In this document: piece after piece, positions 15,092 to 23,855 of the stretch
How the letters are laid out: each line of letters opens with the position of its first letter
Numbering within the stretch: the first letter of the stretch is position 1
Origin: a virus
IMG/VR virus record: IMGVR_UViG_3300029309_000110
Span: 1-38,161 of that record
DNA length: 38,161 nucleotides
Strand: one strand, 5' to 3'
The notes under the pieces: model-generated
The model's database searches: none
What the model saw: the letters and a program-made list of their open reading frames with translations, nothing else
What the model was told of the DNA's origin: nothing
Translations under genes and position numbers: made by a program

Positions 15092-17712
15092 TACGAAACA
15101 CTCCTGACTGGCCCGCCATCTTCGACATCGACGGACAGATCCTCCAATGCCCACGCTCGTGATGTAGCGCCAATCTTGATAAATACATCACTTGCTCTAA
15201 TTCTTGTTCGCTTAGCCGTGGAACGCCCACGAGACAGCAGTACATTTGAGGTTGCCTGTGCGTCCCTAAACTGCGAGCCTGTAATTGTTGCAACCACAGA
15301 CGTTGGCAGTAACCCAGACAAATACTGAATTGTTGTTGGGGTTCCAGACACAAGGGTACTGGTTTGGAAGTACACAACACCGCCCTCTTTAATTTCCCAC
15401 TTACCGTCTGTATTGCGGCTCACGGTATAACCTCCGGGGCCTGCAAAAACCGTATCGTTGATAAGCGTTCCCGTTGACTGGGGGGTGTACTGCCCGTCAG
15501 GCTCGCCGGCAACACCACCGAACACAGTGCCATCCGACTGTGCATCAGTGCCGCCAGCTTCGTCACCTCCATCACAGGCAACGCCAAGAAGACTTGTGTC
15601 TTGTGCGTCAGTTCCGCCAGCCTCGTCACCACCATCAACATTTACATTTGTGGTGGCTAGGGTAAAGCCGCTTGCAAAACCAATTGCTTCTTGAGCTGTG
15701 TCGCCAGTAAGAATCGACAAGAACGGACCAGTGGTCACGGTGTCAACATCCGACTCTGACTTCTCACCCAACAACACACGGGTATCTTTGAGGAGAACCC
15801 GACGTGACGGGTCGGCATTGATTGGACCCATCAAAACTTCACTGTCGAAATCTACTGCGTCCGCAACTGGCGGATGAACCGTAGAGAACGTGGTGCTGCT
15901 CAACACTCCACCATCTTGGTGCTGAACAAACGACTCTGGTTGCGAGAGAAGGTGTCCACTTTCTGTCCCAAGCAGGGGGGCTGTTCGGTCACCGTCAACT
16001 GGTCTAAAAGATACAACTGACTTCACGCCACGCATGGAGCTGTTGGCTATTTGCCAAAGCCACCAGCCTCCGTTGGACATATCCAGTGCAAAAATTTCAC
16101 TGGAAGAATCGTCGTCTGTTTTCGTGACACACATCAATGCTGTGCTACGGGCGTCGTCGTACCCCATAACGATGCTCGTGTTTTCAAAGTCCAAACGAGA
16201 AAAAAGATTGTCCAGTCTGTCCTTGGTAATCCTTGCACCTTTTTCAATGTCAAACGTGTTTGGGTCAATAGCAAACACACCTTCGGTTGATGCAATTAGA
16301 CTGGACATCTCGTTGATCGGAGTAAACGCTCTAGGCCCAAGCACACCTACAGTCCTTGATATTTGCCTAAAGACAACATTGTCAAATGCAGGATCTCCAG
16401 TGAGCATGACCAGAGAACTAGTGCAGCCAAAAACCAGACTGTTTGTGCCTACTGGAATCAATGCTTTTATGTTGTCCCCAACAGTACCAAACTTTGTGCC
16501 GGCAGTGCCTGCCAAAGCCTCGACGCCAGCTGTGGTCCCAGCTCCTGGTGTCCAGTCAAATGGGTCAGTAATTTTGCTCAAGAACCAGTTGGTTGGCGTT
16601 GGGTCCACGCCAGCAAGAACCAATCGGGCTCCAAACTGTTGAACCAGCTTGGCTCGAAAAACTGTACCCCCCTGAGAAGCCTGAACAGTTTTGTATGGCC
16701 CGATCCATTGACTCACAATGGCAGGGCTCTGTGAAACATCTACCTTGACGTACTTTGTTCCATCGGTCATGTAAACATAGTTGTGTGGGGCAGTGTCTTC
16801 TCCTCCTGTAAAAGTAGCTGTCCCGAAAGATGCTTCTGATGAGGTCTCGGCTACCGTTGTGTTTCCTGCCAAACCAGCCACTCGTTGTGTGAACGTAACG
16901 GTTGCGCCGCTGGCTTCTGCAATGATAGATCCGTTGTGTCCGTTGGAGCTGTTGACCATGTTTGCAATGTTGGTTGCAGTCCCAGCTGCACTTCCTCCAA
17001 TTTCAAACTCTTGGTTTGTTGCAGTAGCACCCTCTGCCGCCTTTGCCGTGTAGGTCTTAGTTACCTGCGAGGACGCACCATTGAGCCCAGCAGTGTCTGT
17101 AAGAGTAAACGTATCATTGACGTTCATGACATCACTCAGGGTTAGAACTACTGTTGCTCTCTGTTGTCCACTGGCTATCTCATCGGCACGTCCGACATGC
17201 TTCATAACTGCCATTTCAACTTGAGCAGCATCTGCAAAAATTTTGTGGCTCGATAGGTCGCCGCCTGTGCCATCTGGCTGGGCCTCGACCACTTGGCTGG
17301 AGGGTGCAGCTTTCCGAGGCTGCAAAGTTACGTCAGTGCTCTCAGAGTCATAACTCGCGTTAAAAGCGTTTCGGCCTGTAGCTCCAACGACAGTCGCAAG
17401 AACAGGGTCACCAGTCAAATCAGTAACAAAAATTTTACCTCCAGAGACGTAAATAAGCTGTCTCTTCAAAATTTCAGAAGCAACAAATCCTGTCTTAGTG
17501 ACAAATGACTCGGTAGTAATCATGCCCTGTATGGCAGCGCCGGGCTTGCCCATCTGTAAGAAGCCCTGCCTTGTACCGATTCGACGCCTGTTGTCGAATG
17601 AGTCAAACGGGAATACGTTCCTGCACCGCTTGGTAAATCCGTCAACCGATTGTCGGAAAGACAATGAATCGGTAAGACCTTGGATCGGGATGGGAAGGCG
17701 AGAGTACGGCAT
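15091..17712 (-). CDS. Tail tube nozzle-like protein (tail tubular B-like)
   Basis: The product has 873 residues. The N-terminus has the Phe-Arg-Gln-Ser-Val-Asp...Arg-Arg-x-Gly-Thr-Arg-Gln-Gly-Phe pattern seen at the start of podovirus nozzle proteins. The middle holds a Phe-Gly-Cys-Thr-Ser-Ser-Leu-x-x-Leu-Thr-Gly-Asp region like beta-propeller nozzle folds. Residues about 185 to 310 look like an inserted Thr/Ala/Gly-rich beta domain. A short repeat (Gly-Gly-Asp-Glu-Ala-Gly-Gly-Thr-Asp-Ala-Gln) occurs twice near residue 700. It should form the distal tail through which DNA leaves. It starts by TGATG overlap with the fibre gene. P22 gp10-like proteins are the main alternative. Confidence 0.8.
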   Translation of the reverse strand: MPYSRLPIPIQGLTDSLSFRQSVDGFTKRCRNVFPFDSFDNRRRIGTRQGFLQMGKPGAAIQGMITTESFVTKTGFVASEILKRQLIYVSGGKIFVTDLTGDPVLATVVGATGRNAFNASYDSESTDVTLQPRKAAPSSQVVEAQPDGTGGDLSSHKIFADAAQVEMAVMKHVGRADEIASGQQRATVVLTLSDVMNVNDTFTLTDTAGLNGASSQVTKTYTAKAAEGATATNQEFEIGGSAAGTATNIANMVNSSNGHNGSIIAEASGATVTFTQRVAGLAGNTTVAETSSEASFGTATFTGGEDTAPHNYVYMTDGTKYVKVDVSQSPAIVSQWIGPYKTVQASQGGTVFRAKLVQQFGARLVLAGVDPTPTNWFLSKITDPFDWTPGAGTTAGVEALAGTAGTKFGTVGDNIKALIPVGTNSLVFGCTSSLVMLTGDPAFDNVVFRQISRTVGVLGPRAFTPINEMSSLIASTEGVFAIDPNTFDIEKGARITKDRLDNLFSRLDFENTSIVMGYDDARSTALMCVTKTDDDSSSEIFALDMSNGGWWLWQIANSSMRGVKSVVSFRPVDGDRTAPLLGTESGHLLSQPESFVQHQDGGVLSSTTFSTVHPPVADAVDFDSEVLMGPINADPSRRVLLKDTRVLLGEKSESDVDTVTTGPFLSILTGDTAQEAIGFASGFTLATTNVNVDGGDEAGGTDAQDTSLLGVACDGGDEAGGTDAQSDGTVFGGVAGEPDGQYTPQSTGTLINDTVFAGPGGYTVSRNTDGKWEIKEGGVVYFQTSTLVSGTPTTIQYLSGLLPTSVVATITGSQFRDAQATSNVLLSRGRSTAKRTRIRASDVFIKIGATSRAWALEDLSVDVEDGGPVRSVS
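15539..15637 (-). repeat. Two diverged 36-base direct repeats inside the nozzle gene
   Basis: Copies at 15,539 to 15,574 and 15,602 to 15,637 have a 63-base (21-codon) period. Both encode Asp-Gly-Gly-Asp-Glu-Ala-Gly-Gly-Thr-Asp-Ala-Gln. The copies differ mainly at third codon positions, so the peptide has been kept while the DNA drifted, which suggests an old, functional duplication. Confidence 0.85.
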
Positions 17713-19346
17713 CAGGTTACGTCTACAGTCCCAGTAAATGTGACCGTCAAGGTCGCCGCTGTCAGGTGATCTTTGCTACTTGCATTGTCATTATTACGCG
17801 CCCGACAGGCTACGGCTAAAAACAAATCAGATCCGGTTGAGTTTGTAATCGTATGGGTGGTCGTTACCGTCGTTGTACCACCAGTTCCTCCAGTTGGAGT
17901 GGTTCCTTCATTTTCAGCGAGCAATGTTTTTCCTGTTACCAAATCCTTGCTCGTGTAGGAATAGACTTGGGTTTTGGCAGTAATACGATTGTTAAATTGT
18001 TGTCCGCCAAAGATAGAGTTGTTTCCGGTCACCTGCAAACTAATGGTAGCCGTACATGATTCAAGATTGGGAACTTTGAAGATTTCAAAAACATTTGAGG
18101 CGGGCGTTGTTTGCAGATCCGGGTCTGAAGTGGTTGTGTTGGAGTTGGTGGTTCTTTCCACTGTGTGGTTAAGCAAACTGGTATGCAATTCGGTTGTAAA
18201 CGTGCCGTCCGTGTTGCCCGGAATTTCTTGAATTCTGAGGCCAGTTTGTATCCGGCTCGTAACATTCAAAGTGCCAGACGCTTTCTTTTGCCCAGACAAA
18301 ATGCTCCGAAGGTTACGCAGGTTGAAAACTTGGGTTCCATCCATGCCATCAATACTTGATTTTGTGTCCGCGACAATTCTGTCAGCGGTGACCCTGCCGC
18401 TGTAGTCAATCTCAGCAAGATTTTCTGAAGTGCCGTTCTTAACAACGGTGATTGCTTTTTGTGAAGCACCTGCCGCGCTGTTACCGGCAAGCTCTAGTTC
18501 TCCAATCATCGACGTACCACTGCCGGAAACTTTTGCACGGAAGTGTGGATCGTCTAGGTGGTGAGTGGCATCAGCACCACTGTCTGTGTTGTTAGGGGTT
18601 GTAGCAGACCGGACAACGCCGAAGTTAGATGGGTCTGCGTGGTTTGGTGTGTTGCCCAAATTCAAAGTTTTGACGAACACTGACGAACCTTGTGCAATCT
18701 TGAACAGATCGGTCCCGTCTGCTTCTTGCACTCGCATGATTGGGTTGTCTGAGTCATTGGAAGCAGTGACCCTAAATGCAGAGTCAGTAACACCAGCGTC
18801 ATCGACCGGCACAATAGACACGTTGCCTGAGTGATCAACGGCCAAGCCTTTGCCGACCTGACCCGCATCAGGTTGCACCCGAAGCAGGTCGCCGCCAGCG
18901 TTGTCGTCGTCTTGATCTGCTGCACCAAAGACAGACAGAACCACGTCTGCGGTTTGTCCGCGACTTTCGATTGCAACCAACGCAGCCCCGTCAGAAGACT
19001 CGTCATCAGACACTCTGAAGATGTCGTTGCCCGTCTTGTTCTCAACCACAAAGATTGGTACTGACTGTGACGTTGCCCCCTTGACTGTCAAGGGGATCTC
19101 GCTGGCTGGTTGTTCACCACCCATGACTGTTTTAGAGTATCCGGGTTTGAAATAGACACGGCCATCTACATCGTCTCTAAGAGTCACATAGTTACTGCTA
19201 CCGTTTCCGATTAGCAAATACCCGCCAGTCGTTCCAGATTCTTGAACGACCAGCACCTCTCCATCAGCTGGGGTGATAGTAGAGGTAGTGTTTGCGTCAT
19301 TAAACTCAGCTTCTGTACCTCTACGAAGTTGTATCTTTACTGCCAT
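17712..19346 (-). CDS. Tail fibre / receptor-binding protein
   Basis: The product has 544 residues. It begins Met-Ala-Val-Lys-Ile-Gln-Leu-Arg-Arg-Gly-Thr-x-Ala-Glu-Phe, the classic N-terminus of many phage tail fibres. Residues 30 to about 330 repeat short beta units such as Phe-Arg-Val-x-Asp/Ala, Met-Arg-Val-Gln-Glu-Ala-Asp-Gly and Gly-Asn-Val-Ser, as in trimeric beta-helical shafts. The C-terminal third, from about 370, is Thr/Ser/Asn-rich and is the likely tip that meets the host surface. ATG at 19,346 overlaps the small membrane protein stop. The nozzle gene follows directly. Confidence 0.85.
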   Translation of the reverse strand: MAVKIQLRRGTEAEFNDANTTSTITPADGEVLVVQESGTTGGYLLIGNGSSNYVTLRDDVDGRVYFKPGYSKTVMGGEQPASEIPLTVKGATSQSVPIFVVENKTGNDIFRVSDDESSDGAALVAIESRGQTADVVLSVFGAADQDDDNAGGDLLRVQPDAGQVGKGLAVDHSGNVSIVPVDDAGVTDSAFRVTASNDSDNPIMRVQEADGTDLFKIAQGSSVFVKTLNLGNTPNHADPSNFGVVRSATTPNNTDSGADATHHLDDPHFRAKVSGSGTSMIGELELAGNSAAGASQKAITVVKNGTSENLAEIDYSGRVTADRIVADTKSSIDGMDGTQVFNLRNLRSILSGQKKASGTLNVTSRIQTGLRIQEIPGNTDGTFTTELHTSLLNHTVERTTNSNTTTSDPDLQTTPASNVFEIFKVPNLESCTATISLQVTGNNSIFGGQQFNNRITAKTQVYSYTSKDLVTGKTLLAENEGTTPTGGTGGTTTVTTTHTITNSTGSDLFLAVACRARNNDNASSKDHLTAATLTVTFTGTVDVT

Positions 19347-19830: not shown

Positions 19831-20024
19831 TTCTCTGTCTTTCCTTCTAACCGTGCAATACGCTGCTCTACGCTTTGGGTTCGTGTTTCAAGCAATCTTA
19901 CAGCCTGATCGAGTCGATCAACGGCATGTCGCAAAGATTCGATAGCAGCCTTGACTTGGGCCGCACCGAAGATGATGCCGATCAGAATGGAGGCTGGTGT
20001 AGCCCAAGCGTCAAAGAATTCCAT
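19827..20024 (-). CDS. Small membrane protein with coiled coil, holin or inner-spanin candidate
   Basis: The 65-residue product has one N-terminal hydrophobic span (about 10 to 28) followed by a regular heptad-like coiled coil to the end (Leu and Val at a/d positions, Arg/Glu elsewhere). This one-span-plus-coil shape is shared by small holin-like proteins and short inner-membrane spanins. The following gene encodes a lipobox protein, which would suit an i-spanin/o-spanin order, but that protein has extra spans. ATG at 20,024 overlaps the previous stop (TAATG). Confidence 0.7.
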   Translation of the reverse strand: MEFFDAWATPASILIGIIFGAAQVKAAIESLRHAVDRLDQAVRLLETRTQSVEQRIARLEGKTEK

Positions 20025-20272
20025 TACTTCTTCTTCTTTCTTCTACGGCCACTCGCAGTGACGGCGTACTCCACACGAGAGGGTCCGGTCTTGCGAGCAG
20101 CAGCTGAACGCTTCTCAGATGCCGTCATCTTGGCCGCGACCTTGGCTGGCCGGCACGCTGGGTAAGGACGCTTGCCCTTCTCTTTGCCCGAACGTCCGCA
20201 CTTCTTGCCGGTCTTGATGTCCCGCCAATCTTCCTTAAACCACTTTGTCAATCCGCCTTGAGGCTTAGCCAT
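20024..20272 (-). CDS. Small basic conserved phage protein (DUF5872-like)
   Basis: The product has 82 residues and is very Lys/Arg-rich. It contains Gly-Gly-Leu-Thr-Lys-Trp-Phe-Lys-Glu-Asp-Trp-Arg-Asp-Ile-Lys-Thr-Gly-Lys, then Cys-Gly-Arg and Tyr-Pro-Ala-Cys-Arg-Pro, and a basic tail Arg-Arg-Arg-Lys-Lys-Lys-Lys. I recognise this arrangement as a small conserved family common in aquatic phages and large viruses. The DUF number is from memory. Function is unknown; charge and late expression would suit nucleic-acid binding or packaging in the virion. TAATG overlaps join it to both neighbours. Confidence 0.85.
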   Translation of the reverse strand: MAKPQGGLTKWFKEDWRDIKTGKKCGRSGKEKGKRPYPACRPAKVAAKMTASEKRSAAARKTGPSRVEYAVTASGRRRKKKK

Positions 20273-20877
20273 TACGAGCGCCTCCGTCTACGAAATAATC
20301 CGAGAATCCCAACAAGTGGCAAGACCCCTGCCTCGGGAATCGGCGTATACTCATCTCCCCACAAACCCCAATCAAAAAGGAGCGTCTCTTGTCCACTCTC
20401 ATCGAAAGCAACGACTGGATCGAAGAGGAAGTCATTCTGTTGGATGGACTGGAAGATGCCATGATTGGGATCGGAGAGCAGAATGGCGGCATCGGGCAGG
20501 TAGCTACCTATAGCGTCAGAAAAATACTGGACATCTTGATGACGAGAGACGACATCTGTTGGGAGTGCGCGTTCGAGTTCTTTAGCTTCAACATCGCTGG
20601 CCTCGGCCTTGGAGTCAAGACCCCCGTCCTCGTCCATGACCTCAAGCCCGACGACGCCATCCGGCACTCCGACACCTGTAGCTGCTGCGACGGAGCCAAT
20701 TGTTGTTGAAAGGCCCAAAGCAAAGTCCAATGACTCTTTGCCGGCGAGCGTAGAAACGACAGTAAGAGCCAGCGTAAGACGCTGGTTCTTGGCGCTGATC
20801 TCTTTGCAGCGGCCCTCACAATCGGAGAGCTGCTTCAATTCTTCAGCCTGTCGCTTCTCGCACGCTGGACAAGTCAT
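20272..20877 (-). CDS. Membrane protein with PEP-CTERM-like C-terminal sorting tail
   Basis: The product has 201 residues. ATG at 20,877 is chosen because it overlaps the previous stop as ATGA. The N-terminus has two cysteine pairs (Cys3, Cys6, Cys20, Cys24) that could bind zinc. A hydrophobic, Ala/Gly-rich region spans about 33 to 70, and an acidic middle follows. The end is Ile-Pro-Glu-Ala (180 to 183), a hydrophobic stretch (184 to 195), then five arginines and Ser. That matches the Pro-Glu-x / hydrophobic / Arg-cluster layout of PEP-CTERM signals, which exosortase cleaves. There is no standard signal peptide. It may instead be a two-span lysis protein, since it borders small membrane genes. 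Confidence 0.7.
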   Translation of the reverse strand: MTCPACEKRQAEELKQLSDCEGRCKEISAKNQRLTLALTVVSTLAGKESLDFALGLSTTIGSVAAATGVGVPDGVVGLEVMDEDGGLDSKAEASDVEAKELERALPTDVVSRHQDVQYFSDAIGSYLPDAAILLSDPNHGIFQSIQQNDFLFDPVVAFDESGQETLLFDWGLWGDEYTPIPEAGVLPLVGILGLFRRRRRS

Positions 20878-21053
20878 GCTCGGTATCCGCCACCACGCTT
20901 TTTGTATGTGCGAACCAACCACGCATTTGCATACGCCGATGGGTACACATCAAACTTTCTCTTGGCCTCCGCCTTCACCCGGCTGTACAAAGCTGGGTTA
21001 GTGGGCTTCGGCCCCTTCTTGGTGGCCTTTTTTGTGGCCTTCTTTTTCGCCAT
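20874..21053 (-). CDS. Small basic conserved phage protein ending in Lys-Lys-Arg-Gly-Gly-Gly-Tyr
   Basis: The product has 59 residues. A Lys/Thr/Ala repeat N-terminus (Ala-Thr-Lys-Lys twice) leads into Asn-Pro-Ala-Leu-Tyr-Ser-Arg-Val-Lys-Ala-Glu-Ala-Lys. Then come Val-Tyr-Pro-Ser-Ala-Tyr-Ala-Asn-Ala-Trp-Leu-Val and the end Tyr-Lys-Lys-Arg-Gly-Gly-Gly-Tyr-Arg. This is a very conserved small protein of aquatic phages and large viruses, often near capsid genes, with no settled function. The N-terminal Lys/Ala repeat resembles histone H1 tails. ATGA and TAATG overlaps join it to its neighbours. Confidence 0.85.
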   Translation of the reverse strand: MAKKKATKKATKKGPKPTNPALYSRVKAEAKRKFDVYPSAYANAWLVRTYKKRGGGYRA

Positions 21054-21184: not shown

Positions 21185-21705
21185 TACAAACCTCGTCTTT
21201 CTTTGACGTATTGAAAAAATTCAGGACTTACTTTGTCGTAGTAGCCCATTTGTTGAAGCACTTCGGATGTCTTATTTACGACAGACAGCCGTTGTACAAA
21301 CACTAACGAGTACGCCTCGTCAAGTAGCTTTCCCCAGTGGTCGGGTTCTAAATCAGGATCATCAGGATCTTCGTCCCCCGCTATGAACGGAAGTAGAACC
21401 AGGTCGATGTTTCTCTCGACCAACTCTTCGTTTGTCTGGTCGCAGTATTCTTCCAAACCGCTACTGCCTTCTTCTGACACTGCAAACGCGATGATCTCGT
21501 ACGAGTCATCCCAAGAGTGGATCGCCTCTGTAAGTTCTTCTTCTCCACCTATCATTACCAAACACTTGTTTTGCACCCATGCCTTCTTGGCAAACGGGCA
21601 AGGCTTGTGTCCGCTGTAGTGATCGCTGGGTACGTCAAGATAGTTCAAGATCCAGTTTTGAATCTCTTGGGTAACGTTCTCAAGATTGAACTGAGCAGTT
21701 GTCAT
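21184..21705 (-). CDS. Conserved hypothetical protein, acidic, with Cys-Pro-Phe-Ala-Lys-Lys motif
   Basis: The 173-residue, acidic product has near its N-terminus Val-Pro-Ser-Asp-His-Tyr-Ser-Gly-His-Lys-Pro-Cys-Pro-Phe-Ala-Lys-Lys-Ala-Trp. An alpha/beta-looking body follows, with an Asp/Glu-rich loop near 115 to 125. The His-x-Pro-Cys-Pro-Phe-Ala block looks like a conserved signature, but I cannot name the family. ATG overlaps the LamG gene stop (ATGA). Its place among virion genes does not by itself make it structural. Confidence 0.75.
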   Translation of the reverse strand: MTTAQFNLENVTQEIQNWILNYLDVPSDHYSGHKPCPFAKKAWVQNKCLVMIGGEEELTEAIHSWDDSYEIIAFAVSEEGSSGLEEYCDQTNEELVERNIDLVLLPFIAGDEDPDDPDLEPDHWGKLLDEAYSLVFVQRLSVVNKTSEVLQQMGYYDKVSPEFFQYVKERRGL

Positions 21706-22598
21706 ACAACACCCGACAATCTGTCTGAGACTACAGGGCCTGACAAGTCTAGTGACGTCTCCCCTATCAAGTCTTGGTTGTGAACACCGTGCAAACCAGC
21801 AGCTGGTGCAAAGTCAAAGTATTGGTGTGAGGATGGTAGATTTGAAACGAGGTCGAACCTATGTGCTAAATACCCTTCAACGCTATCAATATCATCAAGA
21901 TTGGAGAATGGGTTGCCAACTGCTACTACTTCGTAAATCTTCCCATCGTATGGATCACACCCGCCGCCTTGAAATTCTCCAAGCAAAAGAGAGTTGGTTA
22001 CATTGCCGGAGATTGCGTTCATAAAGTTTGAACCACCAGCAGAACCATTGTCTGCACCATTGACTCGGTGTCGAGCCGTGGTTGAGGTCTTGTAGACCAG
22101 GCAAATAGTGTCTGTTTCGTTTGAAATAGGGTTGTTATTACTATCCATTGATACCGCGTTGGAGGGGTCGTTGTCAGCGTCGAAGATAGTAAAAGTAAGT
22201 TTGTTGCCGGCTTTTTGAGAATTAATCCGCCACGAAAAAGATCCGTCTGCTGCGCCAGTACCTTTGGATAAAATTGCTACGGCTGGTGTACTTAAGGTTG
22301 GCTTGATTACGGCGGCCATCATAAATGTGCCGAGATCGTCAAGCGTTTCTATATCGCCTGCTCCCAAAAATTCATCAGTTCCATCAAAATCAACCCCTGG
22401 GATGCCGTTGAGTAATCCTCCAACCGATGGCATTTGCGACACATTTAAATTAAAAAAGCTTTGTCCGTTCGTTATGTTTGGAATTTGATTTGACCATATC
22501 GACACATTTGGAGGGTTAGCCCCGTCAGAGGTGATACCAGTGCCGCCTTTTAGCCACACCTGTGCATTGTCCAAGTTGAGTGGAGTCCACAGTGCCAT
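21702..22598 (-). CDS. LamG/concanavalin-like lectin-domain protein, probable virion surface protein
   Basis: The 298-residue product starts with Leu-x-x-Ala-Gln-Val-Trp-Leu, and a Trp-Ser-Asn-Gln element follows. It contains jelly-roll-type strands and ends its domain with Gly-Lys-Ile-Tyr-Glu-Val-Val-Ala and Val-Glu-Gly-Tyr-Leu-Ala-His-Arg-Phe-Asp-Leu. The latter is close to the Val-Glu-Gly-Tyr-Leu-Ala-His-Lys signature that closes many LamG-like domains in environmental bacteria and phages. Such domains bind glycans, so a head-surface or tail-associated attachment role is likely. A two-base gap separates it from the gene before. Confidence 0.75.
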   Translation of the reverse strand: MALWTPLNLDNAQVWLKGGTGITSDGANPPNVSIWSNQIPNITNGQSFFNLNVSQMPSVGGLLNGIPGVDFDGTDEFLGAGDIETLDDLGTFMMAAVIKPTLSTPAVAILSKGTGAADGSFSWRINSQKAGNKLTFTIFDADNDPSNAVSMDSNNNPISNETDTICLVYKTSTTARHRVNGADNGSAGGSNFMNAISGNVTNSLLLGEFQGGGCDPYDGKIYEVVAVGNPFSNLDDIDSVEGYLAHRFDLVSNLPSSHQYFDFAPAAGLHGVHNQDLIGETSLDLSGPVVSDRLSGVV

Positions 22599-22600
22599 GA

Positions 22601-22921
22601 TCAGTCCGAGATGATGTCAACCTTCATGACCGTGCTCGTACCAACACTGGTGGCCGTAGCCTTCATGTGAGGAGCCAAGGCAATCGTGAATGCGGCCATG
22701 TCGTTTGTCATGTCTGCATCGGTCACAGATTTGATGGTGTAGAAGTTTGTGCCATCCGAGCTGCCGAACACTGTGAGTGTCGCGGTGCTGGTTGCGATCT
22801 TGAACACCGCAACTCCGGTGATACCAGGACCTTTGCCTTGACTGTATTTGTCTTGCAGTTGAACCGCACTTGGAGTGACGCTGTCACTGCTAATAGCGTT
22901 TAGGAGATTATGTACTCTCAT
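22601..22921 (-). CDS. Small beta-rich virion protein candidate
   Basis: The product has 106 residues, rich in Thr, Ser, Val and Ala, in short strand-like segments (Thr-Ala-Thr-Leu-Thr-Val-Phe-Gly-Ser-Ser-Asp-Gly). This looks like a small jelly-roll or Ig-like decoration or tail protein in which Gly-Ser-x-Asp-Gly-x-x-Phe marks a hairpin. There is no firm family. ATG at 22,921 overlaps the previous stop (ATGA). Confidence 0.7.
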   Translation of the reverse strand: MRVHNLLNAISSDSVTPSAVQLQDKYSQGKGPGITGVAVFKIATSTATLTVFGSSDGTNFYTIKSVTDADMTNDMAAFTIALAPHMKATATSVGTSTVMKVDIISD

Positions 22922-23088
22922 TCGTCGTCATCCTCGTCTTTGGGAAACTCGTCGTTTTTGAAAAGATAGTCGATTGCCATTTCTTGCAGGACACCTGCAA
23001 CCACCCATTTGTTCATATCAAACTCAATCGCGTAGTTTTCAACCTGACGCTCCAAAGTTTGTTTGAGATGTTGTGCAGCATTCAACAT
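22918..23088 (-). CDS. Small acidic-tailed hypothetical protein
   Basis: The 56-residue, helical product ends in Lys-Asp-Glu-Asp-Asp-Asp-Glu. ATG at 23,088 overlaps the metallophosphoesterase stop by seven bases; the longer in-frame extension upstream lies wholly opposite that gene in another frame and is not credible. A central Trp-Val-Val-Ala-Gly-Val-Leu-Gln-Glu-Met-Ala motif recalls small phage proteins of unknown function. Confidence 0.65.
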   Translation of the reverse strand: MLNAAQHLKQTLERQVENYAIEFDMNKWVVAGVLQEMAIDYLFKNDEFPKDEDDDE

Positions 23089-23855
23089 TTCATTGTCCTC
23101 AACTCGGCCTCCCATTCCTTCGCATTCAACCGCGAAGCTGTCTCCATCCTCGCTTCGATAATCGCCATACCCGTCCCCCAGTTGTTCGTGTCCTTCCGGC
23201 TCATGTAGTCCGGTTTCAGGGGTCCACACGTCCCAACATTCATATACCACCAAGGCAGGGAAACCTTCCTGGTTCTCATCATCTGGGTGGGAGGGACCGG
23301 TCGATGTGTATGACCCCTCACAAAAAGGCGATACGGGTGGCATCCCGTCGAGTTGTTCATCTGCAAGCCTTCGAGTTCGTCCGATGTCAATCCGCAATCG
23401 AACCCGTGGTAGAACACGATCTGGCCCACCTTGTAGCAGCCCTTCGAGGACTTGATGTAGGGACGCCAGTGCCACTGCCTGAACTCGCTGGCGAACTCCG
23501 TGTTCATCCAGTCGCACGTCTCCCTCAAACCCATAGGTATTCTCCTCGGGTCCGCCCTCTTGATGTTGTCGTCGTGATTCCCCTCGCAGATGATCAGCCG
23601 GCAACCTGTCGGCAGACATTCTCGAATACTCTTCAAGAAGGCTGCGGCATGCCGATACTCGTCCATCAAAGTATGATCGCTTTCGTCGGGATGCACGGAG
23701 GCTGCGGCGGCGTCGAACACGTCGCCACAATGCACGAAGTGAGTGAGACCCGGAGTATTTGTTATCGTTTCCAATATCCATTGATGCGTCTCACTTGGGG
23801 TGTGTGGGGAGTGGGTGCAAGAAATAGCAGCAATTTTCGCAACCTCATGGCCCAT
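23082..23855 (-). CDS. Calcineurin-like metallophosphoesterase
   Basis: The product has 257 residues. ATG at 23,855 is preferred (GGAG about ten bases upstream, one base after the previous stop); an in-frame ATG at 23,885 lies inside that previous gene. The motifs are in family order: Ser-Cys-Thr-His, Cys-Gly-Asp-Val-Phe-Asp, Glu-Gly-Asn-His-Asp, Tyr-His-Gly and Arg-Gly-His-Thr-His-Arg-Pro. These are the two-metal phosphoesterase ligands. The first motif has Cys where Asp-x-His is usual. Substrate is unknown; phage members may trim nucleic acid ends, cyclic nucleotides or phosphoproteins. It is unusual that it sits inside the virion gene block. Confidence 0.85.
   Translation of the reverse strand: MGHEVAKIAAISCTHSPHTPSETHQWILETITNTPGLTHFVHCGDVFDAAAASVHPDESDHTLMDEYRHAAAFLKSIRECLPTGCRLIICEGNHDDNIKRADPRRIPMGLRETCDWMNTEFASEFRQWHWRPYIKSSKGCYKVGQIVFYHGFDCGLTSDELEGLQMNNSTGCHPYRLFVRGHTHRPVPPTQMMRTRKVSLPWWYMNVGTCGPLKPDYMSRKDTNNWGTGMAIIEARMETASRLNAKEWEAELRTMKC

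Follow-up and report, generated by a model that had tools for sequence, protein, structure and literature searches.

P0001, a 201-residue open reading frame with a C-terminal tail resembling protein-sorting signals, lies on the minus strand of a 38,161-nt stretch of virus DNA (IMG/VR record IMGVR_UViG_3300029309_000110; hereafter the window, meaning this whole stretch). The window phage is podovirus-like, encoding an SU10/P22-like portal, an SU10 adaptor, TerL, RusA and a PD-(D/E)XK nuclease, together with a fibre bearing a borderline Mtd_N domain. The features of the locus, and of P0001-bearing loci in relatives, are given below with their evidence in brackets.

20272..20877, minus strand: P0001, 201-aa ORF with a sorting-like tail (homologues; codons 1-65 pN/pS 0.15)
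20707..20877, minus strand: conserved N-terminal region of P0001, codons 1-57, with CPxC...CExRC, a long helix and a 13-residue hydrophobic stretch at 34-46 (invariant residues; AlphaFold2)
20275..20340, minus strand: C-terminal tail IPEAGVLPLVGILGLFRRRRRS, codons 180-201 of P0001 (sequence, alignment, codon comparison)
20281..20285, minus strand: GGAGG, ribosome-binding site of the downstream gene, within the P0001 Arg codons (sequence)
20389..20709, plus strand: phrog_13182-family gene in antisense, 106 aa from a TTG start, nested in phase within P0001 (PHROGs E 2e-15; open in 10/10; pN/pS 0.29)
20377..20382, plus strand: AAGGAG, ribosome-binding site of the antisense gene, 6 bases ahead of the TTG (sequence, conserved in comparison)
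20874..21053, minus strand: DUF5872 N-terminal half-gene, 59 aa, upstream of P0001 (Pfam E 4e-9, profile positions 1-38)
20024..20272, minus strand: DUF5872 C-terminal half-gene, 82 aa, downstream of P0001 (Pfam E 1e-5, 26.1 bits against a cut-off of 27.5, profile positions 51-91)
L024:1961-3004, L027:2591-3634 and L028:3830-4912: putative secreted proteins of 347-360 aa beside P0001 (signal-peptide-like start, dockerin-like C-terminal end)

P0001 begins with ATG, with an alternative GTG start 15 codons further out, and ends in ...TPIPEAGVLPLVGILGLFRRRRRS*. Its tail comprises, in order, IPEA, GVLPLVGILGLF, RRRRR and S; the original prediction, which had described an Ile-Pro-Glu-Ala motif, a hydrophobic span, five Arg and a Ser, was exact in layout and coordinates, with codon 180 (Ile) beginning at position 20340. 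The Arg-run codons CGG AGG CGC contain GGAGG, and the ATG of the downstream gene overlaps the P0001 stop codon; the number of Arg residues is therefore partly explained by the double use of these codons as a ribosome-binding site. At the other end of the protein, AlphaFold2 placed a helix at residues 4-45, with block pLDDT values of 83-90 across residues 1-40; the model as a whole (mean pLDDT 53) is of low confidence beyond this N-terminal helix and too weak for a fold search. The hydrophobic stretch at 34-46 (mean KD 1.84) follows a 33-residue helical, Cys-containing N-terminus, and no clear signal peptide is evident, as judged from hydropathy and AlphaFold2. Codon comparison showed the N-terminal region to be under purifying selection. 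The middle of P0001 is acidic and variable (24 D/E vs 4 K/R) and unstructured in the model.

Among ten ungapped homologues, divergence at codon positions 1, 2 and 3 was 0.078, 0.035 and 0.183 in P0001 codons 1-65, and 0.163, 0.041 and 0.104 in codons 66-177, where position 1 was the fastest. Across codons 66-177, the antisense frame was open in 10/10 sequences with a pN/pS of 0.29, and the sense frame gave 0.81. Furthermore, the GGAG-type site and the TTG of the antisense gene were kept in 11/11 sequences, a relative with 53% identity included. Position 1 was clearly fastest in only one of the other ORFs compared, the longest ORF at 22918-23781 (g287), whose frame differs from that of the true gene at this locus, a metallophosphoesterase at 23885-23082 (minus strand). 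Because that signal was traced to a wrong-frame gene call, it can be taken as a positive control of the codon-position method. Together, these comparisons indicate that the antisense phrog_13182 gene is real and under purifying selection. Homologues of phrog_13182 lie upstream of P0001 and on its strand in L029, G007 and L027, and the short P0001 homologues L022-L030, of which the L022 form has 160 aa, hold no such gene inside; the gene therefore sits reversed within P0001 in the window group. A second, diverged (32%) copy of phrog_13182 was seen on the G003 contig (6539-6315), and TATACT at 20346-20351 (plus strand) is a possible -10 box of the antisense gene.

Reading a Val/Ile/Leu-rich gene in reverse tends to yield acidic, variable sequence like the middle of P0001, which is the antisense shadow of the phrog_13182 gene and not a domain in the window group. 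An exported acidic domain diversifying together with the tail fibre was considered and rejected, since position 1 diverged fastest, a sign that the constraint on this segment comes from the other strand. The overlap is a warning against interpreting the acidic segment as a domain. Checkable examples of phage DNA coding on both strands are rare, and this antisense gene, nested in P0001 and backed by a selection signal from sequence comparison, is one. The sense frame of P0001 was open in 11/11 sequences, which is weak evidence because the chance of encountering no sense stop is already ~0.1-0.2 per sequence given the codon use; the exclusively silent changes in the tail are better evidence for translation through P0001.

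Homologues of P0001 were found at nine close loci and about a dozen further ones, all on virus contigs, and on one contig of a metagenome-assembled genome (MAG); several of the marine phages carrying the gene are mutually unrelated. IPEAG is identical in the 11 close sequences compared, and its codons have at least 6 substitutions, every one synonymous (P ~4e-4 if neutral). P181, G184 and L188 are invariant in the alignment of 11 homologues, and TAT ACG ahead of the motif is invariant at the DNA level in 11 sequences. Distant homologues (28-46% identity) retain [ILV]-P-x-x-G with the hydrophobic stretch and basic end behind it. Across the family the motif appears as IPEAG, VPESG, VPASG, LPETG (confined to L027), VPTSG, VPNPG and VPSPG (the last two in L029/L030); a hydrophobic stretch and then a basic end come after it in every case, and the hydrophobic residues of the tail swap freely while P and G stay. 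Given this variety, the family rule is [ILV]-P-x-x-G rather than Pro-Glu-Pro. The hydrophobic span measures 10-13 residues and holds a Pro in the window group. In a rule-based scan of 2477 ORFs of at least 60 aa, drawn from the window, from related phages and from four archaeal contigs, P..G followed by hydrophobic residues and a basic C-terminus occurred in 12, all of them P0001 homologues. Collectively, the alignments and the scan show that the tail is more than a chance feature and is conserved at the protein level.

DUF5872 is encoded in two parts, each a small basic protein; P0001 is inserted between them in the window and follows both in L022, L027 and C49. The latter contig belongs to a T7-like phage and carries a P0001 with 81% identity. 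In tblastn comparisons of C49/G070 with the window phage, the matches were P0001 (81%) and the DUF5872 halves (38-50%), C49 also matching a 96-aa ORF weakly over a short length. By this measure the two sides have no structural or packaging genes in common, and C49/G070 encode a T7-type RNA polymerase, a connector, a nozzle and an integrase. Conversely, G004 is near-identical to the window phage in TerL (98%), portal (97%) and the DUF5872C neighbour (100%), yet its P0001 is only 53% identical. P0001 therefore behaves as an exchanged gene, and these identities show it to be an accessory gene passed among unrelated phages. The putative secreted neighbours in L024, L027 and L028 had no family match and end in CP(A/S)DLNEDG(V/I/L)VGF(Q/E)D(L/I)LQVL; we take the CPADLNEDGVVGFQDLL end to be of a kind found in planctomycetes. 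Near P0001 there are also a 65-aa TM/coiled-coil gene with a weak Rz-like spanin match (E 0.086) and a lipoprotein-like gene. Two other genes of the window phage are far more variable than its core genes: a Big_6-like protein at 21702-22598 (minus strand; 25-40% where matched among close relatives) and the fibre at 17712-19346 (minus strand; 26-56% in G002, G003, G004 and G072).

The sole P0001 relative in genome_contigs is C49 itself (L058; G001, PBMS01000049.1; 34 kb), binned in a Euryarchaeota MAG. Its tetranucleotide correlation to the other contigs of the MAG is 0.75-0.78, with 0.96-0.97 among those contigs themselves; because of this mismatch and the T7-like phage genes (RNA polymerase, integrase), mis-binning is likely, and a Marine Group II archaeon was rejected as host. 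No exosortase match was found in this MAG, in which C49 is probably misplaced, and the dockerin-like end was found in none of 77 genomes from the phylum to which the archaeal MAG belongs, in a scan run without a positive control. A planctomycete host was likewise set aside, with no planctomycete match through the integrase, plasmids or the dockerin-like end in searches that did not take in planctomycete genomes. The PEP-CTERM consensus had no match among cultured phages, the query being so short as to be insensitive, and the cultured relatives are too distant to name a host. A holin match in Pseudomonas phage GEC_K2 was dismissed as chance (E = 8, on the strand opposite to the annotated gene).

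The single PF07589 match in the window record spans all 24 profile positions but scores 12.0 bits, under the cut-off of 20.7, and the records of 12 relatives had none. Full-length P0001 of the window scored 12.7 with MYXO-CTERM (cut-off 20), and full-length L023 scored 12.6 with LPXTG (cut-off 15.9), the highest LPXTG value for a full-length protein, and 8.7 with PEP_CTERM (cut-off 16). The TIGR02595 cut-off was never reached by full-length P0001 proteins, and no full-length family member scanned passed any sorting-signal cut-off. Isolated tails matched mainly sorting-signal models (MYXO, GPS, XDP1, LPXTG, PEP and GlyGly-type MprA) in a scan without a shuffled or unrelated-tail control. The isolated window tail reached 17.0 bits with MYXO-CTERM, under the cut-off of 20, and the L023 tail reached 18.1 with LPXTG (cut-off 15.9) and 16.6 with PEP_CTERM (cut-off 16), the cut-offs being intended for whole proteins. 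The P0001 tail fits the LPXTG, MYXO, GPS and GlyGly models as well as it fits PEP-CTERM. In our reading it is a tripartite tail of sortase/exosortase-like type; its assignment to the PEP-CTERM type is not established. Of the sorting tail originally proposed, the conserved tripartite layout (motif, hydrophobic span, basic cluster), common to unrelated phages, was upheld; the assignment to PEP-CTERM proper was not, as PF07589 and TIGR02595 stay below their cut-offs, Glu is not kept beyond the close group and the span is short. The two outcomes named beforehand as refuting it were half borne out: the profile score fell under threshold, and Pro-Glu is lost in the majority of distant homologues and retained in the close ones.

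We assign a probability of roughly 0.42 to P0001 being an accessory envelope protein whose tail is handled by a host sortase/exosortase-like enzyme. P0001 would be a phage accessory protein acting at the host cell envelope. Its N-terminal region and its tail, both conserved, are joined by a linker that varies freely; in the window group, this linker is the antisense reading of the reversed phrog_13182 gene, with the sense frame held open and the tail still made. Inserted in the inner membrane with its basic end inside and P-x-x-G at the outer face, the protein may be cut or held at P-x-x-G by a sortase- or exosortase-type enzyme of the host and left at the envelope. Its likely use would be altering the infected-cell surface, for example by excluding other phages; alternatively, it could aid the neighbouring putative secreted protein that some relatives encode. 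Against such handling stand the full-length scores below the sorting cut-offs, the unclear signal peptide, the short, Pro-containing span and the fact that a plain tail anchor would look alike.

Such an anchor, never cut, perhaps lysis- or membrane-associated and with P-x-x-G merely capping the helix, is the main rival and nearly as likely. A hydrophobic span with a basic end is a common tail-anchor layout, which accords with the lack of a clear signal peptide, the scores under all cut-offs and the nearby spanin-like and lipoprotein-like genes; however, P and G invariant at fixed spacing across 28-88% identity and silent-only change in IPEAG go beyond an anchor's needs, isolated tails match mainly sorting models, and profile scans found no lysis-family match in any P0001 member. 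The first proposal, that P0001 is a genuine PEP-CTERM protein and that a host exosortase sorts it, is quite improbable, even with I-P-E, the hydrophobic span and the Arg cluster in the window tail, the isolated L023 tail above the PEP_CTERM cut-off, VPNPG/VPSPG in L029/L030, and the CPADLNEDGVVGFQDLL end of the putative secreted neighbour, presumably of planctomycete kind, counted in its favour. The system does occur in Planctomycetes and Verrucomicrobia (PMC1569441). Conversely, PF07589 gives 12.0 vs 20.7 bits and nothing in the relatives, Glu and the second Pro are not conserved, the span is shorter, and the signal peptide present in about 97% of PEP-CTERM proteins (PMC1569441) is not evident in P0001. 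Highly improbable is a by-product of DNA-level constraint, in which the Arg codons serve the downstream gene's ribosome-binding site and IPEAG the antisense gene's upstream region: GGAGG does lie within the Arg codons, the tail-coding part is directly upstream of the antisense start and TAT ACG is invariant, but silent-only change in the IPEAG codons already largely refutes it, and L022-L030, without the antisense gene, keep V/L-P-x-x-G and a basic end.

Extended to its full scope, the sortase/exosortase-like reading would have unrelated marine phages exchanging a cargo gene whose product is surface-delivered by host machinery of this type, one group having a second gene reversed and nested in phase in two-strand coding; this entire scenario is rather unlikely. 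If the tail is processed, P0001 would offer a clear case of phages using C-terminal protein sorting outside Gram-positives, as well as a testable envelope target and a clue to the host group.

Among known systems, PEP-CTERM (PF07589/TIGR02595, exosortase EpsH) resembles the window tail in Pro-Glu, hydrophobic span and basic end, and P0001 has the hydrophobic helix and basic cluster at the extreme C-terminus, with a span of only 10-13 residues. Unlike PEP-CTERM proteins, the P0001 family scores under the cut-off and lacks the near-invariant Pro-Glu-Pro, neither Glu nor the second Pro being conserved; moreover, its span is shorter, its signal peptide is not clear and its gene is a phage gene. 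No literature report of phage-encoded PEP-CTERM proteins was found, judging by titles and abstract openings. LPXTG (TIGR01167, sortase) is approached by the [ILV]-P-x-[ASTP]-G pattern and by a literal LPETG in L027, whereas the full-length proteins fall under the cut-off, only P and G of L-P-x-T-G are kept throughout, the fourth residue is variable, the span is short and no sortase was seen. MYXO-CTERM (TIGR03901) shares the hydrophobic span and Arg cluster with the window tail, which differs in scoring below the cut-off of 20 and in its IPEAG motif holding no Cys, the invariant residue required in the MYXO-CTERM motif according to PMC11980579. Finally, the antisense ORF at 20389-20709 matches the profile of phrog_13182, a phage protein family with no assigned function, and differs from its relatives in that, in the window group, the gene is reversed and nested within P0001.
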